Shown here in pieces: positions 4,346 to 64,000 of a stretch of 64,000 bases of DNA (position 1 is its first letter; each line of letters begins with the position of its first letter). This DNA comes from Paguma larvata. Its lineage: Eukaryota > Chordata > Mammalia > Carnivora > Viverridae. The notes under the pieces were generated by a model that saw only the letters and a program-made list of their open reading frames with translations, had not been told where the DNA came from and made no database searches. The position numbers were made by a program, and so were the translations under genes. The stretch is from the NCBI GenBank assembly GCA_030068075.1, contig JAINVK010001249.1, forward strand, positions 154,001 to 218,000, in the 5' to 3' direction.

Positions 4346-4778
4346 GTGTCCCAGGGAAGGGAAAGGCAGGGCGCCCCCGTGCGCTGTGCGGCAGTGACGT
4401 GTGGCCGCCACACGAGCCCAGAGCACAGGGTGGGACGTGAAGTCTGCCTCCTCGTGGCTCCCGTCACCGGGGGATGTGGGGTCGGCAGGGGAGGGCGTGC
4501 CCGTTTGTCCCAGCTACACAGGGAGTGTCTCTCCCGAAGGTGTGCAGGGGAAGAGGGAGGCAGAGCGGAGTCAGCAGGTGCGGCCGTGGGTGGCCGGAAC
4601 CGCAGGGACCTCAAGGGGGCTGAGGCGGCGCGGCCCCTGTCGCTCTGATCTGTGTCTCCTCCTGGGTCTGGTCGTCCTGGGGGCGTGGTGCTGGGTCTGG
4701 GTGTGGCTGGAACTGCTGAAGCCCTGCCCTGCGGCCTCACACGCCTCTCCCAGGGCACCCTGCCCGTGTTCTTCTCAC

Positions 4779-36045: not shown

Positions 36046-36060
36046 TCAGTCAGATCCTCC
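36046..36060 (-). CDS. Candidate last coding bases of the STAG-like gene
   Basis: A good acceptor (TCTGTCCCCAG) precedes 36060. Joined in phase 0 after s23 it adds GGSD and a TGA. No family sequence confirms this, since STAG C-termini are variable. The 3' UTR would then run about 1 kb to the - strand AATAAA at 35077. Confidence 0.3.
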   Translation of the reverse strand, partial: GGSD

Positions 36061-36674: not shown

Positions 36675-36785
36675 CTCCTGCGCGGAGACGCCCTCCACGT
36701 CCACGTCCTCACCGGAGGAGGTCTCCGAGTCCTCCGACGACAGGAAGTCGACATCAAAGACGTCGCTGCCGGAGGGAAGAGTCCC
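36675..36785 (-). CDS. STAG-like exon s23 (acidic C-terminal tail)
   Basis: 111 nt, phase 0/0: [37 protein letters not shown]. The acidic Ser/Asp/Glu tail is typical of STAG C-termini. The acceptor is TCTCTCCAAG and the donor GAG|GTCAGT. If the donor is not used, the frame stays open to a stop at 36522-36524 with non-acidic sequence. Confidence 0.75.
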
Positions 36786-39700
36786 CTTGGAGAGACCTGC
36801 GCGGCGCCCCCAGGGACTCTGCCCCCATTGAGAGGCGGGACAGGAGGCCTCGTGGGGGAGGGGGACTGTTAGCTGGGGGGGGGGGGGAGGGGGTGCAGGG
36901 GACCCAGTCAGGGGCAGCAGGGCGTGGTGGCCTGACGAGGACGCGGGATGGAGGCCTGCGAGGTTGGGGGGGGACAGGAGCCCTGGAGGCAGTCACTGTG
37001 CGCGGCCGGCGGGGAAACAGGACGCAGACTCCCGTGGGGCGCCCGGCCCCCAGAACGGGGCTCGGCGGCACCGCTAACGCTCTCGCGCCGCCCCCTCGAC
37101 GACGCTGTGGGGAGTTGGGGAGGGGGAGAAGCCCCTGGCCACCCGTCCCTGCCTCCACCCCCGCAGGACCCCGGCGGACCGTTGTCCCTGACGGCCACCC
37201 GTGTCTGCTCACCTCGGGGACTCGCGGCCCCTGGGGGGGTTTCTCGGCTCTTGGTCCCGCCCACTGGAGCTGGGCAGGGTGTCCGGGGTCCAGCTGGAGC
37301 AGGTCGCCGCGGGCAGCTCTGCGGGGCGGGGCGGGGCCGGTCAGCCGGGGGTCCCGGGCCGCCCCACCCCGCCCCTCCCCTCCCCCCCCACCTTGAGGCC
37401 GCTTGCTCTGTTTGCATATGGCATCAAACGGGTTGGCGGCGGGCTCCTCCTCCTCGCTCTGGGCCACTTCGTCCGTCTTCGTCAGGGACTTGCGGTAGGC
37501 GAGCAGCGGGTTCATGTCCCCGTCCCCGAAGCTGGGCACGGCGTCGGGAATGCAGTCCTGGAAGTATGCGAGCCTGCGGGCGGGCGAGAGGGGGCGTGGG
37601 AGGGGGCATGCGGTGTGGGGGGGACGTGGGGGAGAGGGGCGTGGGGGGGGAGAGGGGCGTGAGAGGGGGCATGCGGTGGGGGGGAGAGGGGTGTGGGAGG
37701 AGGGGGAGAGGGGTGTGGGGGAGAGGGGTGTGGGGGAGAGGGGTGTGGGGGGAGGGGGGAGGAGCAAAGACCCCACAGGGTCCCCGGGAACCCCCGGGTC
37801 GCCCTGTGCCCCCGACCCGGTTCAGCCCGGGGTCCTCGGATGGAGCCGGGACACGCGGCGCGAGCTGGACGGTCGCGGAGAACCGCCCCCGGGCCCCGCA
37901 CCCGGCCCCCGGGCCCCGCACCCGGCCCCGCCCCCGGGGCTCCCGCGCACTCACGCGGCCGCGCGCTCGGCCGGCGGGATCTTGCAGGAGAACTCGGCCA
38001 GCAGGAGCAGGAAGCTGAGGTTCGGGAAGCGCTGGCGGCCGCCGTCCTCTCCCGCCACCACCGGAGCCTCGGAGAAGGCGTAGGCCAGCCCGCGCCTGGG
38101 GGGGCGACCAGCGGGGGGGGCCGGGGCGGGAGGGCGTGTGGGGTCAGGTGGGGCCGCGAAGGGAACCCCGATCACCGCTCCGGGCGGGGCTCGCGGCGGG
38201 GTTCACACGGAGGGTGGGCGCCAGGCGGGGGCGGGTCGGAACGGAGGGCGCCGGGGGTCGCGAGGGGGCGGCGTCCCGGGACGCACCTGTGAATCAGGTG
38301 CGCGGCCTCCCGGGCGCGGTCGAAGCCCAGCGTGAGCGCGAAGCGCCGGGCCAGCAGGCGGATGGAGTAGAAGGGGCCGCAGATGAACTCGATGGGGTCG
38401 TAGCTAAGCCCGTACGTGTCCATGTGCTTCTGGAACAGCTGCACCACAGCGGGGGCCCCGTGGGCTCAGGGACCCGTTGATGGGCACGCGCCGGCGACCC
38501 AGGTGTCCGGGTCTGGGGGCCCTGAGCCTGAGCAGGGGGTGGGCGCCCCGTGTCCGGGGTCACCCTGCTTCCTGCAGTCTGGGGGTGGCGGGCCGCCGTG
38601 TCCTGGAGTGGGGGTGGGCACTACGTCTCCGGCGCTGGAGGAACCCCACGTCTAAAGTCCGGGTCCGTCTCTGCATGTTCTCGGTTTCACGAAGAACGGG
38701 GGCAGACCCAGGTGGAGCGGGCAGGGGTGGGGCCACCCGCCCTGCACAGACCCTGCAGTGGCCGCAGGACGGGCCTGTGCACCGCACACCTGTGCCCAAA
38801 GGTGAGCCGCGCTGGCAGACGGGCGGGGACCCGGGAGACCCGACTGGGCCCTCCCCGCGCCCCCAGCGTTTCAGGGAGGCCCCGTCTGGCCCTGGCGGTC
38901 AGCGCATGTGGTAGCGCCCGGCCCAGGGGACGGAGAAGCGTGTCCACGCGGGCATCGGGGTCCCTGCACGCGTCGGGCGATCGCCCCAGTCCAACAACAT
39001 CAGGTCTGCCCGGCCCCCGGGCCTTCCCCGGAGACGACTGGACGGAAGACCACGGAGGGAGGGAAATGAACCCAGCTCACCGACAAAGCACACGCAGGGG
39101 GGACACGTGCGTGTCAGACAGACACAGCTGTGTGGACAGGAGACCGCAGGGCAGTCCGGAGCACCACGTGGGCAGTACACCAGCTGCCACGGGATGGAAC
39201 AGACGCCCGGGCTCGCACACAGAGTCATGACGCAAGGACATGGACAAGACAGAGGGACGCCCAGCCTGCGGGTCGGGGACACCGCCCCATGCAGTCACCA
39301 TCCAGAGGCCCAGCCCCCGGTTCTCCGTGTGAGGACACACGTGCAGCCCCTCGGGGACAATCCGGCTCCACACTGGGGCACGGCCACTCCCTCAGCAGGA
39401 CGACGCGGTGACGTCCCCTCTGCCTAGAAAGCCGTGGGCACCCACATCCACCTGCCGTGTGTCCCCGCCACACCCTGGGACCGTGTCCTCTGTCTTCCTG
39501 TCCCCCAACCGCAGACGAACCCAACACACCGTTCCCAGGACCCCCGCGGTGGAGCCGACCGTGGAAACCGGCCGTGGGGGACTGAGTGTGTCCCCCAAAA
39601 CCAGACGTGCAAGCCTGACCCCCGAGGGGACCCTGGCAGGCGGTGGGGCCCGGAGGCGGTCAGGATGGCGGGGCCCCCACGGCGCATCAGTGTCCTCGGA

Positions 39701-42700
39701 GGCGTCAGACCGCTTCCCGCCCCCTGCCCCCTGCCACGTGGGGACACGGCAGAGTCCCCTGTGTGACCCTCTGGAGGCCCCCCAGAGCCTGACCCTGCGC
39801 CCCCTCCCGCGGGGCCCCCTGGCCTCAGACACGGCCTCCAGAGCCCGGAGGGGACGGTCTGACGTCTTGGCCGCCTGTCCGTCCGGGGGGGCGTGGGACG
39901 GCCTAGCCCCCGCGTGTGTTGTCCCCTCGAGCGCCAGCTCGCAAACCGGCCCCGGGATGCGGGGCTCCTGCGGAGCGGGCAGCGGTGCCCATGACCGGCG
40001 CCCCCGAGGACGCCCGCCTCCCCGGGCCTGGGCGACCGGCGGAGCGCCCCCCACCTCCCGGGGTGGACAGCTCACCTGCTGCAGGCACAGGAGCAGGGAG
40101 AGCGCGTTGCGAAGCCTGTCGTTCTGCCTCGTCCTCGTCATGGTCTCCTTGATGATGTCCCCGAAGTCCTGGTGATGCTGCAGGGGACACGGAGCGCGTT
40201 GGCGCGGGGACACCGTCGGCACAGACCCGGGACCGTGCCGCGTCCCGGATCCGCAAACTCCACAGACGGCCACGCAGCCACGCACCCCGAGGGCCTATGC
40301 AGATGTGGGTCCCACCGACCGCTCGGCACCAGCCAGGCCCCGCGTCAGAGCCGGCGGGCGGGGGCACGTGCACACGGCCCGGAGGGCAGTAGCCGTCAGG
40401 CCTCATGGTCCTGGAACCCCCCGCCCCCCCCCCCCCCGGCGCAGGGACGCTGCTTCTGTGGGGACGGCAGGGCCACGGAGCCAGGCGGCAAGGCCTCTCA
40501 GAGCCACAGTGACAGGCCCGTGCCGGGGCCGCACCAGCCGTGGAGACGCAGCCACCAGAGCCAGCCAGGCGTCAGACAACACGCGACTACCCGGCCCCGG
40601 CCCCAGGATGCACTGAGGCCCAGCGCACAACCGTGTGGGAGGGGAATCCCGGGACAGGGGGCCCCCAACCCACCACACGGGAGGAGGCGGAGAAAAACCG
40701 GAAACACCGTCCTTACGACCCATTCCAGAAAGCTCGGGAGGGTTGGAGATTAAAACAGAGAAACCCCGTCACAAAAATAAAACTCGGAATTAGAAAGTAA
40801 TCGAGGGAAAATATGTCCCCCAAGTAATGAAGGGCCAATGTCTCCAATGTGTTACCGGACACACGAGAGGTTCTTGAAATTATGACATGAGAAACGGCAG
40901 CGACTGACAGGTGTATATGTTCCCCCAGCCGTCATCCAGCCACCCAAGCCTGTATCCATCCATGCATTCACCGTCTGTCCGTCTATCCATCCATCCATCT
41001 GTCCATATATACGTCCACTCACCCACGCATCCATCCATCCATCCACCACCGTCCATCCGTCCATCCATCCTCCCTTGTATCCGTTCATCCATCCACTTAT
41101 TGTCCAACCCTGCATCCATTTTGGTACCCATCCATCCATCCATCCATCAATCCACCCACGTATCCATCCACTCGCCCACCCATCATCCATCCATCCACGT
41201 ATCCCTCCACCCACCGACCCGTCCATCAACACTTTTGGGCTCCTGTCACAATACCAGCTACTGACATCATCACCTGGGATAGTCAATGATCAAAACGGAA
41301 AACAACTTCCCGCGCTCGCGAGACTGACTGCACTCAATCTCAGCAGCGATGAAAGAACGAAATCAGGACGAGTTTTAAAAGACAAAACGTCATGTCCTAA
41401 GTGAAAGAGCCCAGTAGAAGTTAGGTTCGGGAAGAGACGTCGGGGCTGTAAGAATGCACAGGAGACACTAACAGGGACGCGGTCCACGGGGGCCCTCGAG
41501 TGGTCGTCCCCAGGAAGTGGTGAAGGAAGCAGGAGAACGGTGAGTCCGTAAAACTAGGCATGTCCCACTCGCGTTCTCCGTGTGTTTAAGATGTGTTACT
41601 GCGATCCTGTGTCTGGCGCGCGGGGGGGGGCGGGGGGCGCACGGGGATGGGGCGCGAGGAGGGGGAGCGCGGGGAGGCAGGGGCGCGGGGGAGGCGGGGG
41701 TAAGGCGGGGCGCGGGGAGGCAGGGGCGCCCGCACGGAGGCGGGGGGGGGGGGGGGGGGGGCGCGGGGAGGCGGGGCGTACGGGGGAGGGGCCGGGGGGC
41801 GCGCGGGGGTGGGGCGCGGGGAGGTGGGGCGCGCGGGGAGGCGGGGACGCGCGGGGGGGGCGGGGCGCGCGGGGGCGGGCAGCCGTACCTGCAGGTAGAA
41901 CTGGTAGATCTCGGCGGCTGCACGCATGTCTACCACGTTGTAGGCCACGAGCTTACAAAACACGGCCAGCAGGCTCCGCCTCTGGAACAGCTCGTGCGGC
42001 TCGTCCGCGTCCTGCTCCTCGCGAGGCTCGCCGGGACCTGGGCACACAGCACGCCGTCCGCCAAGTCTTCCGGGCCCCCGGGTCGGGGCGCGGCCGTGGG
42101 GCAGGCGGGGGGGGCGCGGCCAGGGCGTCCCACCCGGGGTGTGCTTCGGGGTCCGGGCGTCCCTCCGAGGGACACAGGGACACTGCCAGACGCCGAGGCC
42201 CCGACGGCAGCGACCCCGTGAGCGCCTCGGTCCCCGTGTCCCGACCGCCTGCTCAGCGCTCCCGACCCTTCCGTGGCCACGTGAACCCGGGAGACGGACC
42301 CGTGACACCGCGCACCCCCCAGGCCGCAGAGCCCCCCGCGAGGCCCCTGGCCCGCCCTCCCCCCGGGGCGCCCCCCGCCCCCGCCGCGGGCCCCTGGCGG
42401 CGGACCTGCGGATCCCTCCAGGAACACGTGCTCCCGGACGAAGGCGAGCAGCCGGCCCTGCAGGCCCTGGTCGGGCACGAAGAACAGCAGCCCCAGGCCC
42501 GCGTCCTCCTCGGGGCCCTGGTGGCTCAGAACGAGCAGCAGGTCGCACAGCAGGATGAAGGCCTGAGGGTGACGGGGCGGTCCCAGGGCGCTCGTGCCGC
42601 CGGCCCCCACGCCCCCACGGCTCCAGGGTGGGCGGCCCGGCTGAGTGGGGCCCACGGCGCCGGCAGGGGTGCGACAGCGGCCCCTGGGAACAGCCCCACC

Positions 42701-45700
42701 CTGCCCCACCCTGCCCCGGGACACGGGGTCAGATGCGGACGCGCAGACAGCCGCACACGGTGGCCTGGAAACCCGCCCTCGACGCCAGCGCACGAGGCTG
42801 CCGGCCGAACGGCGTCACGCAGGCGGGAAGCACCGCCCGGGACACGCAGCCCGCGGCGGACAGACGGCCGCAAACACAACGTACGGAGACACACAACCCC
42901 AGACACGCGACACGCGGGAAACACCACACATTGAGGGGGGACGTGCGCCACGTCCAGGCTCACGCCCGGACCCGCGGTGACAAGACGGCCCTGCGACACG
43001 GGGTGACGGAGCGGGGGTCACAGAGCGCGCTCCCGGGAAGGCAGACGCGGGGTCCATGTCCCGCTCGCGGCGCCGGGGAAGGCAGGGGGGCCCCAAGCAC
43101 GCGTGCTGCCCCACGACGCCCTGAGACCCCCTCCCCCGAGCCGTGGGGCCGCCCCGCAGCGTCCCCGTGCAGAACCCGCCACGGACGCGTTTCCAGGGCT
43201 CCGCACCCGGCGTGTCCGCCGCGCGTCAGCGGGGACCGTGCCCCGGGGCTTTCCGCCAACAGGACCGACGCCACGCGAGCTCGCGGCGCGCAGGCGGAGA
43301 CGTCGGCGGACGGGACACGCGGTCGGAAGTGTCCACACCACCACGCGAAACGCCAACGGGCCCCGACTTTCGCGGGCACTTCCAACGTCCCTCGTCTCGC
43401 TCCCCAGCCCGGGGACCCGCTCCCCAGCCCGGGGACCCACCCCCCCCCCCCCCACCCCCGCGAGGCTGCAGGGGACACACCCACCTTCTCGCTCAGCATC
43501 TTGCTCGGATGGCTCAGGTACACGCGGCAGGCCACGCAGAACTTCATCAGCCGCCTCCGCAGGTCCAGCAGCGCCTCCTTCCAGGGGGAGAGGGGGAGAG
43601 GGGGAGAGGGGGCGGGGCTCTATCAGAGGGGAGGGGGCGGGGCTCCACCAGGGGAGGGGGAGGGGCGGGGCTCCACCAGGGGAGCCGGGAGGGGGCGGAG
43701 CTCCGTGGGGGGAGAGAGCGGGGGCTCTGTCAGGGGGGCGGAGCTCTGTCAGGTGAGAGGGCGGGGCTCCCGTAAGGGGGCGGGGCGGGGCTCCCGTCAG
43801 AGGCACCCGAGAGCGAGGGAGCGAAGGGGCCACACACCCGCCCTGTTGCCCTGTCGGGGAGCCCGAGCTGCAGGCGTAGCCGGACTCCGATGAACTCCCG
43901 TCCTCACCCCACATCCCCCGCACCCCTTCCCCATGTCCCGGTGTCCCCTCCCCATCCTCACCCCACGTCCCCCCCACCCCCCACCTCGTCCTCCGCACGT
44001 CCTCCCCCTGGCACCCCCTCCCCCCCACACCCCCGTCCCCCTCCCCCATCCTCACCCCACGTCCCCCACATCTCCCTCCCCCATATCCCCCCTCAACGCC
44101 CAGGTCCCCTCCCCCATCACTGTCCCCTTCCCCCACTCCCCACCCATCACCCCCCGCATCCTCTCTCTCTCTCCCTCTCTCGTGTCCCCATGTCCCCCAC
44201 ATCACATCCGCCCCCCACCGGTCTGTCCCCTGTCATCAGGAACTCGGGCCGCGGATTTCCAGGAAACCGTAAGCCGGGGCCCGAAGCACGGCTGGCTTCA
44301 AACTACCCTCGGTTTGCCCAGCAGCCTCGGTCGAGGTCCTCGCCCAGCGGACGCGGGGGCAGGTGCTCGAGGACACCCGAACTGGACGCTGCCAGGCGGG
44401 TGGACAGGCTGCAGGGCAGGGTCGGCCGTGGCCCAAGGTCAGCCATGTGGTCGAAGCCCAGGAGCCCAGGCCTGACCCCATGGTGACAGACGCCAGCCAG
44501 TGGGGGGGGGGGGACGCCTGTCAACGCAGTGACCGTGCCCCCGACTTGGTGCTTCTACCTCCTCACAGTCCGCTGGGGTCCACGTACCCGCACCGCCCCT
44601 CCCGGCCCCTCACCCGCCCACGCTGGCCCCTGATCGGACCCCTCCCGGCCCCTCACCCGAGGCGGAAGCCGGTCCGTGGCTGCGACGATCTGCCACAGGA
44701 GCGCATAGTAGGTGCACTGCAGCGCACAGTGGATCACCTTGGGGGACACAAGCCCTGTCATGGAGCCGGGAACACGGACGAGACACCACCTGGGGACACT
44801 CCTCCGCATACGACCCTGACACCCTATGCTTGCCCTGCCCCCCGCCCGACCTGAACCCAACCCTCAGGACCTCCCTACCGGGACCCTCCCCCCAGCCAGA
44901 CCCGCCCCCACCAGGACCCTCCCCCACTAGGACCCTGCCCCCACCAGGACCCTCCCCCACCCGAACCCTCCCCCCCCAGGACCCTCCCCCCCCAGGGACC
45001 CTCCGGATCAGGACCCTCCCCCCCAGGACCCTGCCCCACGGAGGACCCTCCCCGCCAGAACCCTCCCCCCCCAGGGCCTTCCCCCCAGGACCCTCCCCCA
45101 CCAGGACCCTGCCCCCACCAGGACCCTCCCTACCAGGACCCTCCCCCCCAGGACTCTCCCCCACGGAGGACCCTCCCCCCCAGAACCCTCCCCCCCCAGG
45201 ACCCTCCCGACCAGGACCCTCCCCACCAGGACCCTGCCCCCACATGGACCTTCCCGACCAGGACCCTCCCTCCAGGACCCTCCCCCACCAGGACCCTCCT
45301 GACAAGGACCCTCCCCCCACCAGGACTCTCCCCCCCAGGACCCGCCCCCACCCGGACCCTCCTGACCAGGACCCTCCCCCCACCAGGACCCTCCCCCCAC
45401 CAGGACCCACCCCCACCCGGACCCTCCTGATCAGGACCCTCCCCCCACCAGGACCCTCCCCCCCAGGACCCTCCCCCGAGCGCGGCCTCACCTCGGTGGG
45501 CAGGCTGCCCCGGTGCCTGCGGAGCGTCAGCAGACTGTCCATCTTCTCATATAGGTTCCAGCTGCTCAGGTCGTGCGTGCTGACCAGAGACGGGAGTCTC
45601 GGGGCCCGTCCCTCCCGGGCGCCACAGCGTCCCCCCCAGTGAGCCGCCAACACCCGGTCCGTGGGTCCTGGAGCTGAAGGGCCACGTCCCGGCGGACGGA

Positions 45701-51700: not shown

Positions 51701-54700
51701 CTCGCTGGCCCCAGTCCACGACTCAGAGCAGGCCTCCGGCCACGCTCACCTTGGCGCCCGCCACGTGGCTCCAGCAGCAGCGCCGTCATGCATTCCCAGT
51801 TCCGGACCAGGGCGGGCGCCGCGTCCCACAGGCCGTCCACCAGGTAGGGGACATGTCTGTGGAACTAACAGGGACGTGCCACGTGTGTGAGGTCGTGACA
51901 ACATGGAAGAAAATCAGATGATCCTAGAGAGACACCTGACAACGTGGGGCAGGGGGACGCGTGATGACACGGGGCAGGGGGACAGGTGATGACAGGGCAG
52001 GGGGACTCGTGAGGACACGGAGGACATATGACAATGTAGGGGGAGGGAACAAGTGATGACATCAGAAGCACAGACGACACGGAGTAAAAAAGACACGATG
52101 ACACAGAGGGACGCATGATGACAACGAGTACGGTGACAACGACGACACAGGAAAAATGTGACGACACGAGGGGGGCACGTGACACAGGCAGGGGACCATG
52201 TGACATGGGCACGGGGACACGTGATCACAGTGAGGTACAAGGGAAAGTGGCAACATGGGACAAGGGGGGTATGCAATGACACAGGGACACCAGGTGGCCG
52301 GGGGACACGTGACGGGGGACGTGTGATGACAGGGCACAAGCGAGACGTGTGACAACACAGGCAGTACGTATAACGGGCAGGGGAACGCATGACGGCACGG
52401 AAAGAACACATGACATGGGGACCGTGTGATGACACAGGACACGTGACACCACGGGTGGACCACGTGACAGAGCAGACACAGGACAACACACGGAGGCATC
52501 GTGACATGCAGCAGCCACGTCATAAACACGAGGTGTTGGGAACGCGGGGACACGGACGGAGGAAATCCGCGAGGACACGAGGTGTCGGGGGACACGTGGG
52601 GACGTGGGCAGGAACGGTCCCCTTCCCAAGCCCCCCCACGTGGGCGGGCACTGAGGACGAGTGCGGACACCCACCCAGGAACCCGACTGCCACGTGCCCA
52701 CGGCAGTGTTCACAGGAACCCAGCCCCACGTCAGCCCGGCACCGGACACAGGACACGGCGTGGGACGGGGACGCAGGACATGGGACGCGGGTGTAGGCCC
52801 CTCCCGTGTCTCGCACAGCCGTCCCGGGGCCCTGCGCTGCCCCGCCCTCACCTCGCCCTGCAGGTAGAAGTCGATGAGGGTCTTCATGTTCTGGAGATTT
52901 CTGTCAAACTCATCAGGGGGGTTTGGGCCCAACGACTCTTGTTGGGGTGCAGGAGCCAGCAGCCTACGGGGTCGGGGAGAGCGCCAGCGTCAGCCTGGAC
53001 GGGGCCCCCCTGCATGTGCTGGTCCCCAGGTCTGCACACACACTCAGCACGGCGCCCTGGGGACCGGGGGGGACCGTGGAGGAAAGTTCTAGAATGACCC
53101 TTGTTTTGTCTGACCCCACAGCCGGTTCAGGCCAGTACTGGGGAGGGGACGGACAACAGGACTGTCCCCTGTTGCTGCTCCTCGAACCCCCAAAGATCAC
53201 AGACCCTGGCCTGAACGCAGACCCATTTGTGACGGTGTGACAGCCAGAGGGCCCAGGAGGGGACCTCAAGCCCACGGGGACCTTGGGGGATGGGGTCCTT
53301 GGGGCCGGGGGCCCTCAGGGCCATTGGGGGCCCTTGGGGATGGGGGGACATCAGGGAGGACCACACGGACAGAGGGACCTCAGGGGTGAACCTTGGGGGG
53401 GGACCTCAGGGACAGGGGCCTCAGGGACCAGGGGGCCCTCGGGGACAGGGAGCCTTGGGGGGTGGGGGTCTCAAGGCCAGGGGGAATCTCAGGGCTGGGG
53501 TGCCTCGGGGGGATCTCAGGGATGGGGGGCTCTCGGGGACGGGAAGACCTTGGGGGGCCACTACACCTGGTCAGACCAATTCACGCACAGACATGCCTGT
53601 GACACGAATCAAGCCAGTCCGCCCTCAGTCACACGTGTCCCTTCCGCGGTGCCTGTACCCATCCCGTCCTGTCCGTCGGCCACACCCTGCCGTCCTGCGC
53701 AAGCCCCTGGTCAGGGCAGGTCCCTGTGGCCTCCGCCTGCCCCACCCTCCTCCGTCCGGGAGTCTGCACCCGGCGGGGGCCTGGGCCCCACCTGAGACGT
53801 CACAGTGACGTCAGGGCCCTGGAGCCGCGCATCTAGGCGCCGCCCTTACCTCCTGCAGATGAGTTCGCCCGCCGCCGTCGCCATGGGCCTGTAGGCCGCG
53901 TACACGAACTGGAACAGGAACACGTACTCCACGGAGGAGAAGACGCCCACGTACTGCCTGGGGGGAGGCGCGCGTGAGCCCGGGGAGGGGGGGGGGAGGC
54001 GCGCGTGAGCCCGGGGGGGGGGAGAGGCGCGCGTGAGCCCGGGGAGTGGGGGGAGGCGCGCGTGAGCCTGGGGTGGGGGGGGAGGCGCGCGGGAGCTCGG
54101 GGGCCCGCAACCGTGCGACACCGCCAAACACGCCCCTGTCTCCCTGCAGAGCAAAGGGGATCTTTGCTAAATCAACGACCCCAACCTCGGCTTCCCGTAG
54201 ATGTATCCCCCACCTCGGAATTCCTGCCAGACCGAGCTCCCCGGGGACAGCCCTGGTCCTAGGACAGGAGCTGACGCCACGTGAGCAGGACCCTGGGGGA
54301 GGCCTCCCCCTGCAGGGCCTCCCGTGTCTGCATTCCTTCCCCTCCGGCTGCCCGCCAGCCCCAAAGTTAGGGAAAACCACTCTGTGCTCCCCCAAGTGTG
54401 CCCAAGCCACCGGTCACCCGACCCTCCTTCCCAGGAGCAGTGCTCCTGACTCCAAGCAGGCGGCCGAGTGGGGGGGCGCACACGCAGGGGCAGCGGGCGA
54501 CGCTACAGGCGTGCACGTGGAGGGGCGGTGGGCGACCCGGTTGGGGCGCACACGCAGGGGCAACCACGCAGGGCTGACCACCGATGCGCGGCAGGCATCC
54601 ACGCAGGGGTGACCACGGATGGGTGGCAGTGAAGAGAGCGTTTTTAAGCTTCCTGTCCTAAGTGACAGCCCTGCAGTAGTTTGAAGCCAGTTCTCTCTTC

Positions 54701-57700
54701 TGCTAAACATAGAGGGGTGCTGTGTTAGAGACAGTGTGCTCCAGACTTCTGCTGACCGTGAACCTCGTTAAGGGTTATCATTGCTGAGAATTCTGTTTTG
54801 ATTGCTGTTTGCTATGAACACTGTGAAACTTTTCTTGGGGTGCTGTGAGGCCTGTTCGTTTGCTATGTATTAGACTAAGTTGCTGTGTGTTAAATCTGGT
54901 TAGGGTTTAGAGACTTGGGAATGCACTAGACTCCTGACCCATCTGCTGTGATTGCTGTGAACCCTGTTTGCTGTGTTCGAGAATTGCCATGTTGTGCAAC
55001 TATGGTGCTGTTAGGGCTAAGGCCACTCCGTTTTGGTTTAAGTTCCATCTTGGAGTAGTTCTGGGCCCCGAGTTCCAGGAAAACAAGTCACCCTGAACTC
55101 TGCCCCCGGGTTCCAGGAAACAGAGTACCCAAAAGGCCGGACCCAGATTAGCAGACCCCGTCACTACCCCGGGTGGGACTGGACCCTGATTAGCAGACCC
55201 TGCCTCCACCTTGAGTTCCAGGGAAACCACAGGAGGTCAGATTCCTAGAATAGCCCCTAGCAAAACTAATCAGTGTCCAGCCCACACCCCCTGACCCTTT
55301 GAATCAGCGCGGGACCCCCAAACTAAGCCAATCCATAGCTAGCCCGCGCCCGCCAAATATGAAATACTCAATCAGAAACTAGCCCGCGAATATGCCAATC
55401 AGTCAGTTCAAAGGATCCCCATTCCCGCCCAGGAAGTGTACTCGAACCCTGGCTCGGGGCTCTTGCCACCTCACCGCTACGCCGGGAGGTGCAAGAGTCC
55501 GAGCTGGAGCTTCGAATAAAGACCGTTTGCGTTTGCATCAGTCGCAGCTCCCCAGCGGTCTTCTTGGGATCCAGAATTTGGGGGACAACAGACAGATGTC
55601 CACAGGTACCCCCATCCGGGAGGGGTACCCAATCCGGGAGGGGTGCTACCCCCAGGGGACGTCCCCGGTGTGACCCTTTATGCAAACACGTCCGGTGAAC
55701 CCGCGCGAGCACAGCAGAGCGGTGTGCAAACACGGCCACGCGGGCATTCCCGAGCCGGCAGAAACCCGGCCGGTGGCCTACGTGTCCGCGCTCCGGGCTC
55801 TGAATGGAGGCGGGATCCCTCCAACGCCGCGGCACAAGCCCGGGGGTCCCCTGTGCTTGTTCTCAGGATTCTGGGGCTCACGAGGAGCACCCGCAGTGGG
55901 TCCGAGTCAGCCCCGCGCGAGCCTCCGGCCCCAGAGCCGCCTGTTCTGCCCGACATGACGCACGCGGGGGTCCCCCGAGGCCGAGCCAGGCCAGCTGGCG
56001 CCCACCCGGCTCGGAACGAGGCCTGCGGCGCCAGGACCCGGTGCGGCGCCCCGCGCGGCCCCTGAGGCGCCCTCAGGGCAGTGGCCGGAAGGCCCGGGAG
56101 GCGGGATGCCGAGGGCAGGAGGCGGACATCCACGCTGGGGGTCGAGCCGGTAACAGGCTCTGCCTCCCCATCCCGTCGCGCCGGCCCTCCGAGCACCGGA
56201 CGCGGGCCCGCCCACTGGGGAGAAACGGCTTGACGGAGTCTGGGGATTAGCGTGTCAACGTGTGTGGGGAAGTCGTCCCTGCAATCACGTCAGCGGCCCC
56301 CTCCAACCGCCGTCGGCAGTCAGGGTGACGGACGTCATCACGCTGCTTACGCAAGTGCGGCCTCTGACCGCCGACCCAGCACAGACAGTCCGGGGGGCGG
56401 AGCCAGACCCACGGGTGCGCAGGCCAGAGAGCCCACTCCGTGAGCCACCGCCGCGGGGAGGGGGGCGGCTGGGGCAGCGGACGGGGTCCCCTGTCCCTCC
56501 AAAGGTGAACTGCGTACGTGTCAGGAGCCGCACAAGTAAAAGCTTCTCCATGTCGGTATCGGGGGCCCCGCGTCCCGACTGCACTGCGGACGGTGGCGGA
56601 CACCAAGTCCGCGCAGACACGGGTTCGCGCATGCGCACCCGCGCAGCCGCCACCCATACAGCCTGGCAATGCGCTCCGGGTGCAGGATTACGAACGGACA
56701 CAGGGTGGCGCACAGACGTAAGGGCACGCAACACGCATGCCTGGGCACGCAACGCACGCAGGGAGCGGAGCCCGGACGCGGGGGCGGGGCCCGGACGCGG
56801 GGGCGGGACCCGGACGCGGGGGCGGGGCCCGGACATACGGGCGCGCAGGACACAGGGGTACTCACTCGGATATGAGCCTCAGCAGCTGCATGCACTCAGA
56901 CGTGATCTCTGGCTGCCGGTCCTGCGTCATTGACAGAATTCGCTTCTAGGGGAGGCGACAGAACACGATGAGTCCGCTTGGTTCTGGCCCCGGGTGCGCC
57001 TCTACGTGCCCGAGGACGCGAGGGGCCGGGTCCTCCCCTCGGGTGCCCTCCGGCGCACCTTCGGGGCATCAGGCCGCATCCCTGGTCCCCGCACACGCCC
57101 GGTGGTGACAACCACGTGTCTCCAGACTTTGTCCCCAGCTGTCAGCCGCTGGGTGGGACCGACCAAGTGAGGGAATCCCGCGGTCCATAGTCCCCCGAGC
57201 AAGCCGAGTCTCCGGAAGAGGCCATCCACGGGCGTGCCCAGCACTAAGGGCGTGAGCTCCGCGCAGCGTGTGCGCCGCCGGCCACGAGCCTCCTGAGCCT
57301 CTTTCCCACGTAGGCGGCTTTGCACCACCTCTACGAGCAAGGAAGGGCCGTGGCACCCCATCGGTGCACAGGACGGGCATGGCGCTGTCCTTCTAGCGGC
57401 TGACCACCACTTCCGGGAGGCGCTCCGTCCCACCCCCACCCGTGGACACCGACCCGCCTGCACACTTCCAGCCTCCCCCTCGACGCCTCTCTGCGGGTGG
57501 CTTTTACTTTCCCCAAGGGCAGAGGCTACCCCCAGAGGGTTTAGCTTCGGAGGGTTCCCAGCTGGAGGCGCCTGAGAAACAGCGTCCTGTGTGGCAGCGC
57601 CGCCCCCAAACCCACAACAGACTGAGAACAAATCCACCGCGGGCTCCGGCCCCGCAGCGCCCCCTGACTTTGCTTCAGCCGCCCCGACCCGGTGAGCCGC

Positions 57701-60700
57701 TCTGCACGTGTGGCACGGAGCCTGCACACCAGCGGCATGAGCTGCTCCTCGGCCCGGACGGCGGGCGCCGAACCTTCCGGCTCCCACGCCCGCAAACACG
57801 CGTCAGCACCCGACCGACCCGCTGGGTGTGCACAGCTCCGCCCTCAGACCGCGCACACGGAGCGGCCCTGCCACCGGGGACCGTGTCACCTGATGTGCCC
57901 TGAGGCGCGGGCGGCTCGACCCTGGCCTCGGACACCCTGAGAACCTTCTCGTTCCCGTTCACGGGACGGCGACGCCAAGCACGGGGCTGAGACGCGGCCG
58001 GCAGCCTAAGGCCAGCAAGTAGCGGATGGACGCGCCGACGTCTACACGTCCACACGTCCGACCGCGATGCTTCCCGTAAGCGCACCTGGGCGGCCCACGG
58101 AGGGCGGGGGGCAGCCGAATCTCACTCACCTTGAACTTATAGAAGAAGAGGCCCAGCTTCATAGCCGACTCTCTCTTCCCGTAGAGCGCCTTCAGCGCCA
58201 GGATGCATTTCATCCGCACACTTGCGTCCTTGGGACAGAGAAACGGGTCCGGTCACCTCGGAAGGGCAGCCCTCCCGCCCCAGACTCTCGACCAGCCCTC
58301 GGCCTGAAACGCTCTGTGCGGGATGTGTGTGTGCAACCCCCAGGCGGTCTAGGAAGATGCCCGCTGCGTCTGAATGGTGTGGCCCAAAGTCCCGCATTGA
58401 GGCCCGCACCCCCGGGACCTCAGGACACGGCTGTGTGTGCAGGTGGGGTTTTAAATCAGGGGATTAAGGAAAATAAAGTCAGTAGTGTGAGCTACGATCC
58501 TTACAAGACGACGGAATGAGAACACAGACACCCACAGTAGGGTGAGCGCGTGAGGACACAGGGAGGGGACAGCGTCTACACACACGCCCAGGAGACGAGG
58601 CCTCAGGAGCAACCAGCCTCGCCCCCGCCTGGACCTCAGACTCCCAGCCTCAGCCCCGCCTGGTGGACCTCAGACCCCGGGCCTCGGCCCCGCCTGGACC
58701 TCAGACTCCCGGCCTCGGTCCCCCCCGGACCTCAGACTCCCAGCCTCGGCCCCCGCCTGGACCTCAGATTCCCGGCCTCAACCCCCCGGACCTCAGACCC
58801 CAGGCCTCGGTCCCCGCCTGGACCTCAGACTCCCGGCCTCGCCCCGCCTGGTGGACCTCAGACTCCCGGCCTCGGCCCCCGCCTGGACCTCAGACTCCCG
58901 GCCTCAGTCCCCGCCTGGACCTCAGACTCCCGGCCTTGGCCCCCGCCTGGACCTCAGACTCCGGCCTCGGTCCCCGCCTGGACCTCAGACTCCCGGCCTC
59001 GGCCTCCCCCTGGACCTCAGACTCCCAGCATCAGTGCCCCCATGGAGCTCAGACTCCCGGCCTCGAACCCCTGGACCTCAGACTCCCGGCCTTAGCCTCC
59101 CCCTGGACCTCAGACTCCCGGCCTCGACCCCCCTGGACCTCAGACTCCTGGGCCTCCACCACTGGGAGAGAATACGGGTGCTGTTCACGCTGCCTCCATG
59201 TTGGGTATTTGTCATGACTACCAAGCAGACTAATTCCGTGCCCAAAGTTAAAACAGCCTAGTGCGTGTTTAATGTATTTTTTTTAAATAATTTTTAAGGC
59301 TCTGCATCCGACATAAACTCAGGACTCGGAGGCCAACAGTCGCTGGCTCCAGCGACTGAGCCAGGTGCCCCCACAAAGGTTGTCCCTTAAGCAGAGAAAA
59401 TAAACACGGCCCTCGCGCGCATGGATTTAGCCACACAGTACTCTCTGAGAGCCCTCCCTCCAGCATTACTACCGCCCTCCTGTGGGGAGGTGAGAACAGT
59501 CTCCCTGACTTGCAAAAATGCCCCCGGCCACCATACCCCAAGTGCAGGGCAGGCCGGCGACCTCCCCGCACCCCTCGTCACCATACGAAACCAGTCAGCC
59601 CCCGAGGGATGGTTTCTGGACTCGAGCAGCACGTGCAGAGCGCAGAGTCCAAAGCCGCACGCAAGCCCAGGGCCAGCACGTGCCACACAGTGCGGCGAGG
59701 CTTCTCGTGATGAGCGGTGCAGGGGTGCGCCGCGTGGGTCCCTGTAGGCAGAGCCGCCACATTCGAGGGCGCCCCCCCCCCCCGCTGGGGACGTTCTGGC
59801 AGCCACTTCCCGGGGGCCGTGTAGAGCCTCGGGGCGCCCTCTTGAAGTCACCTCACCCCACCGCGGTATGGAGCAGAGCACAGGGGGACGGGCAGAGGGA
59901 CAGAAGCCAAGGCTCTGCACCCCGACTACTCCCCAGGCAACCAGGAAGCATCCTGACGGCCGCCACCTGCTCCTGCTGCTGTCTCCGCCGCCAACGGGAC
60001 CGCTGGAGGCTCCGCAGTGGCCCACGACGGCGTGCCCTGCCCCCTCCCGTACCGCACACAGGGCCCCCTAGGCCGAGGGCAAAGAGCAGCCCCGAGACCC
60101 CAGGGGAGTCGCTGTGGCTTGTTGGGTCTGCACTGCACTCCCGCTTCCACCTCCGCTCTCCGACCGACGTCCACGCCACTGCCACGTCCCCGGCAAAGTC
60201 CACACGCTACGTCCCAACCCCCCAGGGAAATGTACGTGGAGGTGGAGCCTCTGGGAGTGACCTGGTCCTGAGGTGGGGTCCCAATGATGGGATCAGCGTC
60301 CTGGTCCAAGAGACCCCGGGCAGCCCCCTCATCCTGTCTTCTGCCGAGCGGGAAAGACCGCGGGCAGCTCCCTCGCCCTCTCCACCGCCGTGCAGGGGAC
60401 ATGGCCCTCCATGAACCAGGGAAGGGGCGCCTGTCCAGACCCTGCAGCCGTGAGAAGTGAGAGCAACAGCAACGAACGTTAGGGGCCCCTGCAGGGTCCT
60501 GCTGCGGAGCCGTGCACCAGCAGCGGACGACGTGGTTTAGGGGCCCCCGCGGAGTCCTGCCGCGGAGCCGTGCACCAGCAGCGGACAAAGGAACTGCACA
60601 GCGCTCCAGCCCTCCTACCCTTCGCCTCGGAAAACAGCGTGCGTCTTCACTCTGCAACCCAACATCGCCCAACACTCGCGACCGGCCCCCGCCCTGCGGG

Positions 60701-62007
60701 CCACAGCGCACACACGCGGCACGCCACATGCAAACAGGACGTCTGTCCTCCCCACACGACAAACCACCAAGATGTAAAATTGCAGGGAACGTGGAACCTC
60801 ACCTGGCGCCTCGCTTACAACCAGCGCTCAGAGCAGCGAGTGCACCCCACGGTCAGTCCCCTGCTCCCTCCCAGGCAATAGCCCCAGCTCAGGAGTCAGG
60901 GGGGACGGGAGCGGGAGGACGGAGATGGGGATGAGGGGGAGCAGAGGGGAGGAGGGAGGGACAAGACCACCAGCTCCGGAACCAGGAAACGCAGTCGGAC
61001 GGTCCTCACGAGCGATTCTCAGCGCTCTGTCGTGTTGAGTTTTAACGGAAAAGGCGTCTATTCCGAAGAACAGATTTTGCTCATTTCCGTCTGTCACAGG
61101 GATCCAAAACTGTCCAATTTTGGTCGCGGCCGCCGGCCGCCGACCGCCGACTGACTGACAGGCACATGTGCTCTGCTGGGGATCTGAACACGCAGGACCC
61201 AGAGCGACCGCTGGGAGCAGGCTTGTGTCTGAGGCTCCCTGTGCCCGGCGGGCCGAGGACTGTGGACGCGCACCACCCCCCCCTTGAGAGCTGGTGGCAG
61301 GGGGTAGGGCAGACCGCTGCCCGTGTGTGCGGCCGCCGTGCCCCGTCCGTAATCCAAGTGCAGGGCCGGACGCACAATTCTGTGTTGGAGGGCGGACACG
61401 AAGGCACAGCCACGTCCCGCTTCCCCAGGGCACTCGTGACCTCTGCCGCCCAAACCCCCAGCTGCGAAATCGCAACTTCGTGGAAAGACCTCTCTGCACA
61501 TCCGCCTCCCGAGAAACCGTCCTGCAGACGTGAGCTCGCTCGTGAACCGCCAGACAGGAGAGCAGAGCTGGAGGCCTCCTCGGAGGCGGCGGCAAGGTCG
61601 TGGTGCACGCACCTTGTCATAGAGCATCCAGCCGATGTACTTCAGGTAGTTGTTGTCCAGAAACAGGTCTGGGTGGAGCTGCACCCAGCAGCCGAGCTCC
61701 GTGGCACAGATTACTCGGATGTCCGAGCTGACGTCCCTGAGAGGGAAGCCGGAGCGTCACCTGGCGGCCGGCCCGGGCGCATCGTCCACACGGTGGGGTG
61801 TGCGTGTCCACACGGCGCCGACCCAGGCTCGGGCACGGGGACGGGAGACGGGGACGGGGGACGGGAGACGGGGGACGGGGGACCGGGGACGGGGCACGGG
61901 GACCGGGGACGGGCGCGCGGCCCCGAGGTGGACCCTTACCGGTAGCGAGGTACAAACGTCCTCTTAAAGAGCGCGCAGATGATGTTGTCGATGGCCTTCG
62001 GCTCGTT
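36675..62007 (-). CDS. STAG/SA-family (STAG3-like) cohesin subunit gene, 23 exons seen, 5' end outside window
   Basis: STAG/SA proteins are HEAT-repeat cohesin subunits that bind the RAD21/REC8 kleisin and CTCF. Twenty-three - strand exons total 2,628 nt, exactly 876 codons, with every splice phase consistent and no stop. In order they carry the stromalin conservative domain (VPRYR, ELGCW, YLKYIGW, VRMKC), HEAT repeats ([85 protein letters not shown]) and an acidic C-terminal tail. Alignment from memory keeps almost the same spacing as STAG1-3. GCW, YLKYIGW and EKVTPLLQ favour STAG3, but identity looks moderate, so it is a diverged paralogue. The Trp and Arg aligned with the STAG2 surface residues W334 and R370 are kept. 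The N-terminus must lie beyond 64,000. Confidence 0.93.
37213..37316 (-). CDS. STAG-like exon s22
   Basis: 104 nt: [35 protein letters not shown]. The acceptor CGCAGAG is chosen because only this AG keeps frame on both sides; the CAG two bases upstream breaks it. [13 protein letters not shown] resembles the SLQLNSIPPTPTL region of STAG3. The intron to s21 is 75 nt. Confidence 0.72.
37392..37573 (-). CDS. STAG-like exon s21
   Basis: 182 nt: [37 protein letters not shown], then acidic [24 protein letters not shown] aligns with PLMSYRNSL of STAG2. The acceptor is CCCGCAG and the donor G|GTGGGG. Confidence 0.93.
37575..37765. repeat. G-rich repeat in STAG-like intron
   Basis: Copies of GGGAGAGGGGTGTGGG next to the s21 acceptor; on the transcribed strand it forms a long CACCCC pyrimidine tract. 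Confidence 0.8.
37955..38095 (-). CDS. STAG-like exon s20
   Basis: 141 nt: [43 protein letters not shown]. Matches PPNLAFLELLSEFS. The acceptor is CCCCCCAG and the donor GC|GTGAGT. Confidence 0.93.
38287..38438 (-). CDS. STAG-like exon s19
   Basis: 152 nt: [44 protein letters not shown]. The acceptor is GTGGTGCAG and the donor AG|GTGCGT. LARRFAL is invariant in STAG1-3. Confidence 0.95.
39575..39700 (+). repeat. MLT1-type LTR 5' fragment
   Basis: GACTGAGTGTGTCCCCCAAA and CAAGCCTGACCCCC resemble the 5' end of MaLR LTRs. Rest not recognisable. Confidence 0.45.
40076..40177 (-). CDS. STAG-like exon s18
   Basis: 102 nt, phase 0/0: [41 protein letters not shown] plus RTRQ is the best known STAG signature. 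The acceptor is CCCTGCAG and the donor CAG|GTGAGC. Confidence 0.97.
40690..41600. repeat. AT-richer block with (CATC)n microsatellite; possible L1 3' remnant
   Basis: 40,950-41,225 is an imperfect CATCCATCCATC microsatellite. The flanks have lower GC than anything nearby, and CATGTCCTAAGTGAAAGAG near 41,393 resembles an L1 3' region. Microsatellite certain, L1 tentative. Confidence 0.6.
41620..41880. repeat. G-rich tandem repeat beside exon s17
   Basis: Copies of GGGGAGGCGGGGCGCGCGGG, with a run of about 20 G near 41,742-41,760. Adjoins the s17 donor. Confidence 0.85.
41889..42037 (-). CDS. STAG-like exon s17
   Basis: 149 nt: acidic [17 protein letters not shown], then [19 protein letters not shown] and [11 protein letters not shown]. 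Near-diagnostic for the family. The acceptor is GTGCCCAG and the donor CAG|GTACGG. Confidence 0.96.
42406..42562 (-). CDS. STAG-like exon s16
   Basis: 157 nt: [48 protein letters not shown]. Strong STAG match. The acceptor is ACCCTCAG and the donor G|GTCCGC. Confidence 0.95.
43485..43577 (-). CDS. STAG-like exon s15
   Basis: 93 nt, phase 0/0: [31 protein letters not shown]. The acceptor is CTGGAAG and the donor AAG|GTGGGT. Aligns with the FC-xCQ...V segment. Confidence 0.9.
43580..43800. repeat. GGGGCGGGGCTCCACCAGGG minisatellite
   Basis: About eight imperfect copies immediately upstream of exon s15. Confidence 0.85.
43900..44215. repeat. C-rich CCCCACGTCCCCC repeat
   Basis: Imperfect C-rich units in the intron between s14 and s15. 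Confidence 0.75.
44657..44737 (-). CDS. STAG-like exon s14
   Basis: 81 nt, phase 0/0: [27 protein letters not shown]. Matches the VIxxALQCTHYVILW block of STAG2. The acceptor is CCCCCAAG and the donor CGG|GTGAGG. Confidence 0.93.
44865..45480. repeat. Minisatellite (ACCAGGACCCTCCCCC)
   Basis: About 600 bases of 14-24 base units with an AGGACCCTCCCC core, ending right at exon s13. Long GGEGPGG-like translations on the - strand are artefacts. Confidence 0.95.
45492..45579 (-). CDS. STAG-like exon s13
   Basis: 88 nt: [29 protein letters not shown]. Matches NTHDLTRWELYE of STAG3. The acceptor is CTGGTCAG and the donor GAG|GTGAGG. Confidence 0.94.
45980..46056 (-). CDS. STAG-like exon s12
   Basis: 77 nt: [25 protein letters not shown], ending two bases into Ser. 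Matches the ATLKRLSAFYN block. The acceptor is CGCGCAG and the donor AG|GTGAGG. Confidence 0.9.
46546..46620 (-). repeat. Possible MER5A-type DNA transposon fragment
   Basis: TTAATAAAGTTTTATCGGAA followed by CACGG resembles the complement of the common MER5A end. Short and diverged. Confidence 0.35.
46940..47545. repeat. 35-bp class minisatellite (CACACCCCACACGCCCGCGT)
   Basis: Units of about 31-36 bases alternate CACGCCCGCGTGCACC, CGATCACACCCC and CACCCCAAACACACC forms; about 18 copies in the intron between s11 and s12. Confidence 0.95.
47586..47792 (-). CDS. STAG-like exon s11
   Basis: 207 nt, 69 codons: [51 protein letters not shown]. The acceptor is GTCCGCAG and the donor GAG|GTGCCG. 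Aligns across its full length with the VVVKHAEPAVLEA region of STAG3. Confidence 0.95.
48275..48364 (-). CDS. STAG-like exon s10
   Basis: 90 nt, phase 0/0: [38 protein letters not shown] is identical to STAG3 as I recall it. The acceptor is GTGGGCAG and the donor TCG|GTGAGT. The intron to s9 is 125 nt. Confidence 0.95.
48490..48573 (-). CDS. STAG-like exon s9
   Basis: 84 nt, phase 0/0: [28 protein letters not shown]. The acceptor at GCCGCCAG (not the CAG nine bases upstream) is required for frame. The donor is AAG|GTGCCG, rather weak. Confidence 0.85.
48815..49215 (+). repeat. MLT1-type LTR remnant
   Basis: CCAGTAGGACCGGAGTCC, ACCTGGAAGAGGCAGGAAGG, TGGATCTCAG and TTTTATGTCCCC in MaLR order. 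The TGGATCTCAG segment is locally triplicated. Confidence 0.75.
49666..49769 (-). CDS. STAG-like exon s8
   Basis: 104 nt: [35 protein letters not shown]. Matches the QES-LIEI...RQA-E-HPPVGR block. The acceptor is CCTCGCAG and the donor AAA|GTCAGT. Confidence 0.93.
50195..50625 (+). repeat. MLT1-type LTR, nearly complete
   Basis: ACCTCAGAATGTGGCCTTG, CCTCATAAGAGACAGAAC, CACGTGAAGACGGAGGCAG, GAAGCTGGAAGAAGCAGG and ACTTTAAGCCGCTCGGTTTG follow the MaLR consensus order. Confidence 0.85.
51370..51665. repeat. GGGACAnnGGGGGACGG-type tandem repeat
   Basis: Imperfect 20-30 base units with GGGACACGGG and ACGGCAGGACGCGGG cores, ending near exon s7. Confidence 0.8.
51750..51864 (-). CDS. STAG-like exon s7
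   Basis: 115 nt: [38 protein letters not shown]. Strong match to the AAYLVDS-WDCA...DWE block of STAG1-3. The acceptor is CTGTTAG and the donor G|GTGAGC. Confidence 0.94.
51915..52500. repeat. GATGACACGGGGCAGGGGGA-type repeat
   Basis: Long stretch of loosely repeated ACACGTGATGACA and CATGACACAGG motifs between exons s6 and s7. Confidence 0.75.
52852..52963 (-). CDS. STAG-like exon s6
   Basis: 112 nt: [37 protein letters not shown]. Corresponds to the variable linker before the FFLESELHEH region. The acceptor is CCCGTAG and the donor GAG|GTGAGG. Confidence 0.9.
53270..53565. repeat. GGGGACCTCAGGGACAGGGG repeat
   Basis: Imperfect 20-30 base units in the intron between s5 and s6. Confidence 0.8.
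53850..53957 (-). CDS. STAG-like exon s5
   Basis: 108 nt: [35 protein letters not shown]. Two AGs four bases apart sit at the acceptor (CAGGCAG); only the upstream one keeps frame with s4 and gives exactly the STAG spacing. The donor is AG|GTAAGG. Confidence 0.92.
53960..54095. repeat. Minisatellite beside exon s5
   Basis: Five copies of GGAGGCGCGCGTGAGCCCGG starting three bases outside the s5 acceptor. On the transcribed strand each unit carries a CCTCCCCCC tract. Confidence 0.85.
54720..55007 (+). repeat. AT-richer LTR-like sequence
   Basis: Markedly AT-richer than its surroundings with repeated TTGCTGTG / TTTGCTATG motifs, abutting the LTR below. May be the 5' part of the same or an older retroviral LTR. 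No coding sequence. Confidence 0.4.
55008..55591 (+). mobile_element. Solo LTR of an ERV1 (gammaretrovirus-like) element
   Basis: Starts TGTTAGGGCTAAGG and ends near GGGGGACAACA. It has internal direct repeats (AGATTAGCAGACCC and TGATTAGCAGACCC), CCAATC boxes, GGCTCTTGCCACCTCACCGC and a CGAATAAAGACCG poly(A) signal, in the order of a U3-R-U5. No gag, pol or env was found beside it, so it is a solo LTR. Boundaries are approximate and a target duplication was not identified. Confidence 0.75.
56755..56835. repeat. CCCGGACGCGGGGGCGGG tandem repeat
   Basis: Four copies of an 18-base unit near the s4 donor. Confidence 0.85.
56866..56945 (-). CDS. STAG-like exon s4
   Basis: 80 nt: [26 protein letters not shown], ending two bases into a Glu codon. 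Aligned with the VSM-x-DREY...LLILIL segment of STAG3. The acceptor is CCCCTAG and the donor GA|GTGAGT. Confidence 0.9.
58130..58228 (-). CDS. STAG-like exon s3
   Basis: 33 codons, phase 0/0: [33 protein letters not shown]. Arg in VRMKC aligns with STAG2 R370. The acceptor is TCCCAAG and the donor AAG|GTGAGT. Confidence 0.93.
58430..58645 (+). repeat. MLT1-type LTR remnant
   Basis: TACGATCCTTACAAGACG, GAGAACACAGACACCCACAG and GGACACAGGGAGGGGACAGC in MaLR order. Continues into the minisatellite below. Confidence 0.75.
58620..59160. repeat. Minisatellite expanded from an MLT1 LTR segment, about 16 copies
   Basis: Unit of about 33 bases: GCCTGGACCTCAGACTCCCG followed by GCCTCGGTCCCC. This is the MaLR TTGATCTCAGACTTC...GCCTCC segment, amplified in place; it ends with the expected continuation at about 59,160. 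Confidence 0.93.
60200..60480 (+). repeat. MST/MLT1-type MaLR LTR
   Basis: GGTGGAGCCTCTGGGAGTGA, CCAATGATGGGATCAGCG, AGAGACCCCGGGCAGC and CGTGAGAAGTGAGAGCAAC follow the MST-type LTR order. Confidence 0.75.
60478..60592. repeat. 58-bp direct duplication
   Basis: Two tandem near-identical copies containing TAGGGGCCCC and GCGGAGCCGTGCACCAGCAG. Confidence 0.85.
61613..61736 (-). CDS. STAG-like exon s2 (SCD core)
   Basis: 124 nt: [41 protein letters not shown]. Near-diagnostic for STAG proteins; GCW and KYIGW follow STAG3. The Trp aligns with STAG2 W334 of the conserved essential surface. The acceptor is CTCTCAG and the donor AAG|GTGCGT. Confidence 0.95.
61825..61925. repeat. GGGACGGGAGACGG microsatellite-like repeat
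   Basis: Short G-rich units next to the s1 donor. Confidence 0.8.
61940..62007 (-). CDS. STAG-like exon s1 (start of stromalin conservative domain)
   Basis: [18 protein letters not shown] and VPRYR, aligned with the FKG-VFVHRYRD block of STAG proteins. The acceptor is GCAAGCAG at 62008; a second AG three bases upstream would add one Gln. The donor is CG|GTAAGG. First exon seen; upstream exons are outside the window. Confidence 0.88.
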
Positions 62008-62214
62008 CTGCTTGCGGGAGAAGGCACGGGGGCGTCAGGCAGGGGCGGGGGCCGGTCTGCAGGCCTCTGCAGCACTGCGGCTGGCGGGCGGGCGCCAGGC
62101 CCACGCGCGGCCCTCTGGTGGTCACCCTGGCCCGGCATTGGCACCCTGGGCACTGGCGGTTCCGCCCCCACCCCCTGGGGCTGATGGGCTGCTCCGCACG
62201 ATGGCGTCACACAC

Positions 62215-63850: not shown

Positions 63851-64000
63851 TGCACACCTGTATGCCCCCATCTGAGGTGGACCCTCCGTTCCACGGTGGC
63901 CCCCACCCCCGCCCCTGGCACCTGCTGCTGGCCCCGCCCTCCCGCTGGCCCTTCCCCTGGTGACTCCTGCTAGCCCCGCCCTCCCGCTGGGCCCTGCCCC

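Follow-up and report, generated by a model that had tools for sequence, protein, structure and literature searches.

According to the accessible text of two studies, mammalian cohesin uses STAG1, STAG2 or STAG3 (PMC11431564), and, zebrafish aside, vertebrate classes have two Stags (PMC10003631). The dN/dS ratio given for STAG3 is 0.225, against 0.013–0.016 for STAG1/2 (excerpt of PMC11431564). Zebrafish stag2a is described, in the available part of the source, as more diverged than stag2b from other vertebrate Stags, as expressed in adults mainly in the ovary, and as a gene for which no mutant was recovered (PMC7750468). A fourth STAG as a separate gene was not reported in the open-access literature found, the subscription literature being largely uncovered. 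The term "Stag4" occurs in a figure legend concerning fetal ovaries in culture (PMC9576165), where, as far as the available portion of that article goes, it is probably a slip.

Here, we describe a minus-strand gene in the window (the whole 64-kb stretch of DNA that was analysed) which, taking our best explanation as a whole, quite probably encodes a fourth cohesin subunit of the STAG/SA family, named STAG4 here, of which the window covers about three quarters from the C-terminus. Its closest counterparts are predicted proteins of carnivores and pangolins called "cohesin subunit SA-2-like", which by sequence are the same gene, and which differ in mostly carrying STAG2-derived database names. 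STAG1/SA1 and STAG2/SA2 share with STAG4 the stromalin conservative domain (SCD), the HEAT_SCC3-SA domain, the predicted fold of an orthologue and most of the conserved essential surface (CES) residues. STAG2 is set apart by an identity of 38.6% (human protein, window part) and by a separate clade, and STAG1/2 rows are without an insert that STAG4 carries (see below). The meiotic STAG3/SA3 has fast evolution in common with STAG4 (judged for STAG4 by branch length, not dN/dS), but it forms a separate clade and lies at another locus, which in human we take to be 7q22. The divergence and ovary expression described for zebrafish stag2a fit a candidate teleost STAG4, and equating the two is a guess.

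Anatomy of the minus-strand gene

Joined across their introns, 23 exons between 62010 and 36675 (Table 1) give 871 codons with no stops, and the borders of exons 1–23 read GT at 23/23 donors and AG at 23/23 acceptors. GC content at codon positions 1, 2 and 3 is 0.65, 0.42 and 0.89, compared with 0.68 in the introns, which is a coding signature. With 421 stops among 22,679 intron triplets, an open run of 871 codons would arise by chance with a probability of about 8e-8. One further, last coding exon encodes GGSD followed by a stop, an ending also present in two felid relatives and a hyena relative, and brings STAG4 to a total of 875 aa plus stop. The original prediction of a diverged, spliced STAG-family gene is borne out by the exon join, by Pfam and by orthologue alignment, and the three STAG signatures that it named are all found on the minus strand inside the span it gave. 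Where it counted 876 continuous codons over 23 exons, our join of 23 exons gives 871, and exon 24 had been missed.

The leopard cat orthologue (P0001, 1196 residues) aligns to the same 23 exons in tblastn. Its residues 1–316 are unmatched anywhere in the 64-kb window, so that the N-terminal quarter of STAG4 presumably lies outside, to the right of base 64000. Searching the last 2 kb of the window with the N-termini of two relatives yielded chance-like matches only, besides the exon already found.

Table 1. Location of STAG4 exons and of the neighbouring PPP2R3B in the window, with the basis of each assignment
Feature	Position	Strand	Basis and remarks
STAG4 exon 1 (first within window)	61940..62010	-	exon join, orthologue tblastn; tandem acceptor also permits start 62007
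STAG4 exon 2, stromalin conservative domain, YLKYIGW	61613..61736	-	signature, exon join, Pfam
STAG4 exon 3, stromalin conservative domain	58130..58228	-	exon join, orthologue tblastn
STAG4 exon 4	56866..56945	-	exon join; 26/26 residues identical in leopard cat
STAG4 exon 5	53850..53957	-	exon join, orthologue tblastn
STAG4 exon 6	52852..52963	-	exon join, orthologue tblastn
STAG4 exon 7, SCC3-SA HEAT domain begins	51750..51864	-	exon join, Pfam, orthologue tblastn
STAG4 exon 8	49666..49769	-	exon join, orthologue tblastn
STAG4 exon 9, open from downstream acceptor only	48490..48573	-	upstream acceptor 48581 leads to stop at 48533
STAG4 exon 10	48275..48364	-	exon join, orthologue tblastn
STAG4 exon 11	47586..47792	-	exon join, orthologue tblastn
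STAG4 exon 12	45980..46056	-	exon join, orthologue tblastn
STAG4 exon 13	45492..45579	-	exon join, orthologue tblastn
STAG4 exon 14	44657..44737	-	exon join, orthologue tblastn
STAG4 exon 15	43485..43577	-	exon join, orthologue tblastn
STAG4 exon 16, weak donor GTCCGC	42406..42562	-	exon join, splice-site inspection
STAG4 exon 17	41889..42037	-	exon join, orthologue tblastn
STAG4 exon 18, one of three STAG signatures	40076..40177	-	signature, exon join
STAG4 exon 19, LARRFAL	38287..38438	-	signature, exon join
STAG4 exon 20	37955..38095	-	exon join, orthologue tblastn
STAG4 exon 21	37392..37573	-	exon join, orthologue tblastn
STAG4 exon 22	37213..37318	-	exon join, orthologue tblastn
STAG4 exon 23, acidic tail	36675..36765	-	exon join, orthologue tblastn
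STAG4 exon 24, last coding, GGSD-stop	36046..36060	-	orthologue tblastn and orthologue C-termini
PPP2R3B core	23823..32641	+	9 tblastn pieces; 3' end faces STAG4

Relatives and placement in the STAG family

The first protein search, drawn from the 7,994 candidates that have the most words in common with the query, is represented by the best 120 of 292 matches. The top 18 rows (P0001–P0018) come from 14 species, all carnivore or pangolin, at 68–86% identity, and are mostly named "SA-2-like"; the named species in the next 102 rows are turtles, birds and squamates (39–46% identity). A further placental orthologue should outrank the turtles, and thus, among the placentals in these best 120 of 292 matches, STAG4 is listed for carnivores and pangolins only, the rows being cluster representatives and annotation-dependent models, only the best candidates being scored, and PAR1 being a region that assembles badly. 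The sauropsid STAG4 proteins are 51–60% identical to human STAG2, while gecko STAG2 reaches 96% over the window part, which indicates that the former belong to a separate gene. A turtle STAG4 query (best 120 of 1,025) placed four marsupials, the echidna, the coelacanth and two sturgeons above the first clear STAG2 row, and a shark (Heptranchias) "SA-2-like" protein among the STAG2 rows. Many bird entries called "STAG2 protein, partial" (P0023–P0119) look like STAG4, with about 56–60% identity to human STAG2, and carry misleading names.

The main tree comprises 41 protein rows and 1212 columns; it is unrooted and covers vertebrates, with STAG3 from mammals, so that where the root lies and in which order the four paralogues split are assumptions. 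STAG1, STAG2 and mammalian STAG3 form clades of their own, with cartilaginous fish within both STAG1 and STAG2, and the split between STAG1/2/3 plus lamprey and the STAG4 rows is supported at 99/97. The window-covered columns alone leave the backbone unchanged (94/88 for this split). Taking STAG1/2/3 as outgroup, STAG4 branches in the order shark, sturgeon, coelacanth, sauropsids, echidna, marsupials, and carnivores plus pangolins, which is the order of the species. Marsupials join carnivores plus pangolins at 99/96; the grouping of the echidna with therians is weak (88/74, and 73/47 on window-covered columns). The stem of carnivores plus pangolins is very long (1.29 changes per column). Judged by its protein sequence, STAG4 is not STAG1, STAG2 or STAG3 and forms a separate clade; its range from shark to carnivores supports the earlier reading of the gene as an old paralogue.

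The other reading offered at that time, a pseudoautosomal copy of STAG3, might draw on the fast evolution of both STAG3 and STAG4. In AU tests, which would share any long-branch pull with the tree, forcing the carnivore/pangolin gene together with STAG3 gave an lnL difference of 119 (p-AU 6e-66), and such a copy is ruled out under the model used. The window gene falls outside the STAG3 clade in the phylogeny with STAG1/2/3 that had been proposed as a check, the insert is absent in 5/5 STAG3 rows, and tiger, dog, hyena and pangolin each have an SA-3 protein besides, so that the probability left to a STAG3 copy is negligible. Most of the database names ("SA-2-like") would rather suit a STAG2 duplicate specific to the carnivore and pangolin lineage. 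Placement with STAG2 is rejected by the same test (lnL difference 147, p-AU 3e-16), and this duplicate, too, is ruled out by AU test and trees under the model used. The marsupial branching given above, the STAG4 insert, and an identity of 38.6% to human STAG2 versus 45.9% to turtle STAG4 also speak against it, and we regard it as highly improbable.

Within the STAG4 clade, the window protein groups with meerkat and leopard cat at 100/99, and with meerkat apart from leopard cat at 97/85 in the main tree, 99/90 on the window columns and 83/34 in another tree. The distance between cheetah and leopard cat is 0.003, compared with about 0.19 from either of them to the window protein, and the hyena protein is 85% identical to it over 551 residues. 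In combination, these observations point to a feliform that is not a felid. A felid origin, as assumed on first reading, does not agree with the distances of the two felids sampled. If that assumption were kept, the locus might be a diverged second copy (e.g. Y-linked or misassembled) in a felid and not the PPP2R3B-linked gene of another feliform. The grouping with meerkat apart from leopard cat, with only the 83/34 of one tree as a lower value, makes this very unlikely.

Domains, the STAG-domain insert and the state of the window copy

Pfam finds the stromalin conservative domain (PF21581; 95.5 bits at a cut-off of 27.5, E 2.4e-27) and HEAT_SCC3-SA (PF24571; 234.6 bits at a cut-off of 25, E 2.4e-69) in the window protein. 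The STAG domain (PF08514) is present in the leopard cat orthologue (74.4 bits) and in five other STAG4 proteins scanned, and tblastn with the orthologue gives no match for its exon in the window. The best PDB matches of the window protein are SA-2 (607 bits) and SA-1 (600). A predicted model of leopard cat STAG4 (mean pLDDT 66, pTM 0.56) best matches human SA2 complexes, with a TM of 0.77 by target length. Of the CES residues named in the available text of PMC10279526, the window protein retains Y297, L329, W334, L366 and F367. R370 of SA2 is replaced by K in 5/5 carnivore STAG4 rows, window included, and remains arginine in the 2 pangolin rows and 34 others; D326 of SA2, a position of our own choice, is N in the window. 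The exchange R370Q in SA2 cuts CTCF binding tenfold, according to an excerpt of PMC11319201; going by the residues involved, R370K is conservative and should be milder than R370Q. On these data, the most likely role of STAG4 is that of an SA subunit in cohesin.

A second mark of the clade is found in the STAG domain, at a site flanked by the counterparts of KMTEEFDEDSG and DYPL in human STAG2. Here, STAG4 carries an insert, 24 residues long (23 in fox), e.g. LQYKKFMAYPWILTVTWPVDM, whose exon is outside the window and which is known from relatives only. It occurs in 22/22 STAG4 tree rows that reach the site and in 0/18 STAG1/2/3 or lamprey rows, all of them chosen before the insert was noticed; since gaps are missing data to the tree, the insert is separate evidence. 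Over 352 proteins, a short insert pattern gave 71 matches, all of them within the STAG4 set of 141 (assigned by list rank), and 0/211 in the others. The pattern is missing in 70 of the 141, of which 60 pass through the site without any extra residues: 58 bird models (nearly all 954–975 residues) together with P0247 and P0252, which resemble STAG2 at this point and are possibly misassigned. The rest consists of the coelacanth, whose insert is a sequence variant, and 9 proteins without a readable site. The bird models skip the insert cleanly, which points to a cassette exon or to gene models based on STAG2. In the predicted leopard cat model, the insert stretch contains beta strands at modest confidence.

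Exon 9 is the one exon of the window copy that calls for comment on its reading frame. When it is read from the upstream acceptor, whose reading matches the orthologues, it runs into a stop, while an acceptor AG 8 bases downstream keeps the frame; the protein models of relatives are open here. An error in the assembly, a newly gained splice site or a young lesion could account for the anomaly, and one-base errors are common in GC-rich assemblies. Together with the poor donor of exon 16 and the long window branch (0.11), it could also mean that the window holds a recent pseudogene, with a frameshift in exon 9, while relatives keep open copies. This appears unlikely, considering that the 22 other exons and the stop exon are open and joined, that the downstream AG preserves the frame, and that the meerkat branch is equally long (0.13). 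Furthermore, changes found only in the window affect 32/601 columns that are invariant in six relatives versus 33/258 variable columns (Fisher p 3.5e-4), i.e. they still avoid the invariant columns. The radicality of changes on the window branch gave P values of 0.02–0.12 and weighs on neither side. The description of the gene as intact, in the original prediction, is to be qualified by the reading of exon 9.

Proposed origin and the PPP2R3B neighbourhood

Once joined, the nine PPP2R3B pieces (PP2A B'' subunit) align with human B'' beta (PPP2R3B) at 594 bits versus 486 with alpha, and the tail to tail arrangement of PPP2R3B with the STAG gene is confirmed. About 3.4 kb separate the last PPP2R3B piece found from the STAG4 stop. 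PPP2R3B is a PAR1 gene in human, and given this status and its adjacency, the STAG4 locus is likely to be pseudoautosomal. The accessible part of PMC12663436 names PPP2R3B among X/Y PAR genes. With an approximate GTPBP6 fragment as tblastn query, the window yielded no match up to an E value of 1, and GTPBP6 may be located outside of it.

Human PPP2R3A and STAG1 are presumably oriented tail to tail as well. They lie about 0.19 Mb apart (chr3:135.97–136.15 Mb and 136.34–136.75 Mb, respectively, in the available text of PMC7187337), and by analogy it seems likely that STAG4 and PPP2R3B arose by the early vertebrate genome duplications. We hypothesize that an ancestral PPP2R3–STAG pair was duplicated into PPP2R3A–STAG1 and PPP2R3B–STAG4, and that STAG4 would then have been lost in most placental mammals, humans included, whereas carnivores and pangolins would have kept it beside PPP2R3B in the pseudoautosomal region. 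The protein likely serves cohesin as an alternative subunit with HEAT repeats, which would bind the kleisin. Its use would perhaps be mainly in germ cells, a suggestion based on fast evolution as in STAG3 and on the ovary enrichment of zebrafish stag2a. The full scenario, with four ancestral STAGs in jawed vertebrates, a germline STAG4 of which zebrafish stag2a is the teleost form, loss in most placentals including humans and mice, and retention in the PAR of carnivores and pangolins, is put forward tentatively and with more doubt than confidence.

A fourth subunit that ranges from sharks through to marsupials and carnivores would revise the inventory of vertebrate cohesin subunits, and a STAG4 clade would explain many "SA-2-like" database entries. 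If the full scenario holds true, carnivores and pangolins possess an X/Y-shared cohesin subunit inside the very segment that is obliged to pair in male meiosis. A fourth subunit would also raise the questions of which cohesin complexes use it, how most placentals were able to do without it, and whether the ancestral germline is modelled better by dogs and cats than by mice.

With regard to other features, an Rfam scan of the window returned nothing at gathering scores. ARAGORN calls a tRNA-Arg (TCG) at 22332–22417 on the minus strand, for which Rfam gives no tRNA at gathering score; the call is probably a relic or false. The window has a GC content of 68% and is rich in minisatellites. Large GC-rich arrays are located at 4777–5663, 20677–21135, 44865–45477, 46938–47575 and 58616–59156, the last three of which sit within STAG4 introns.
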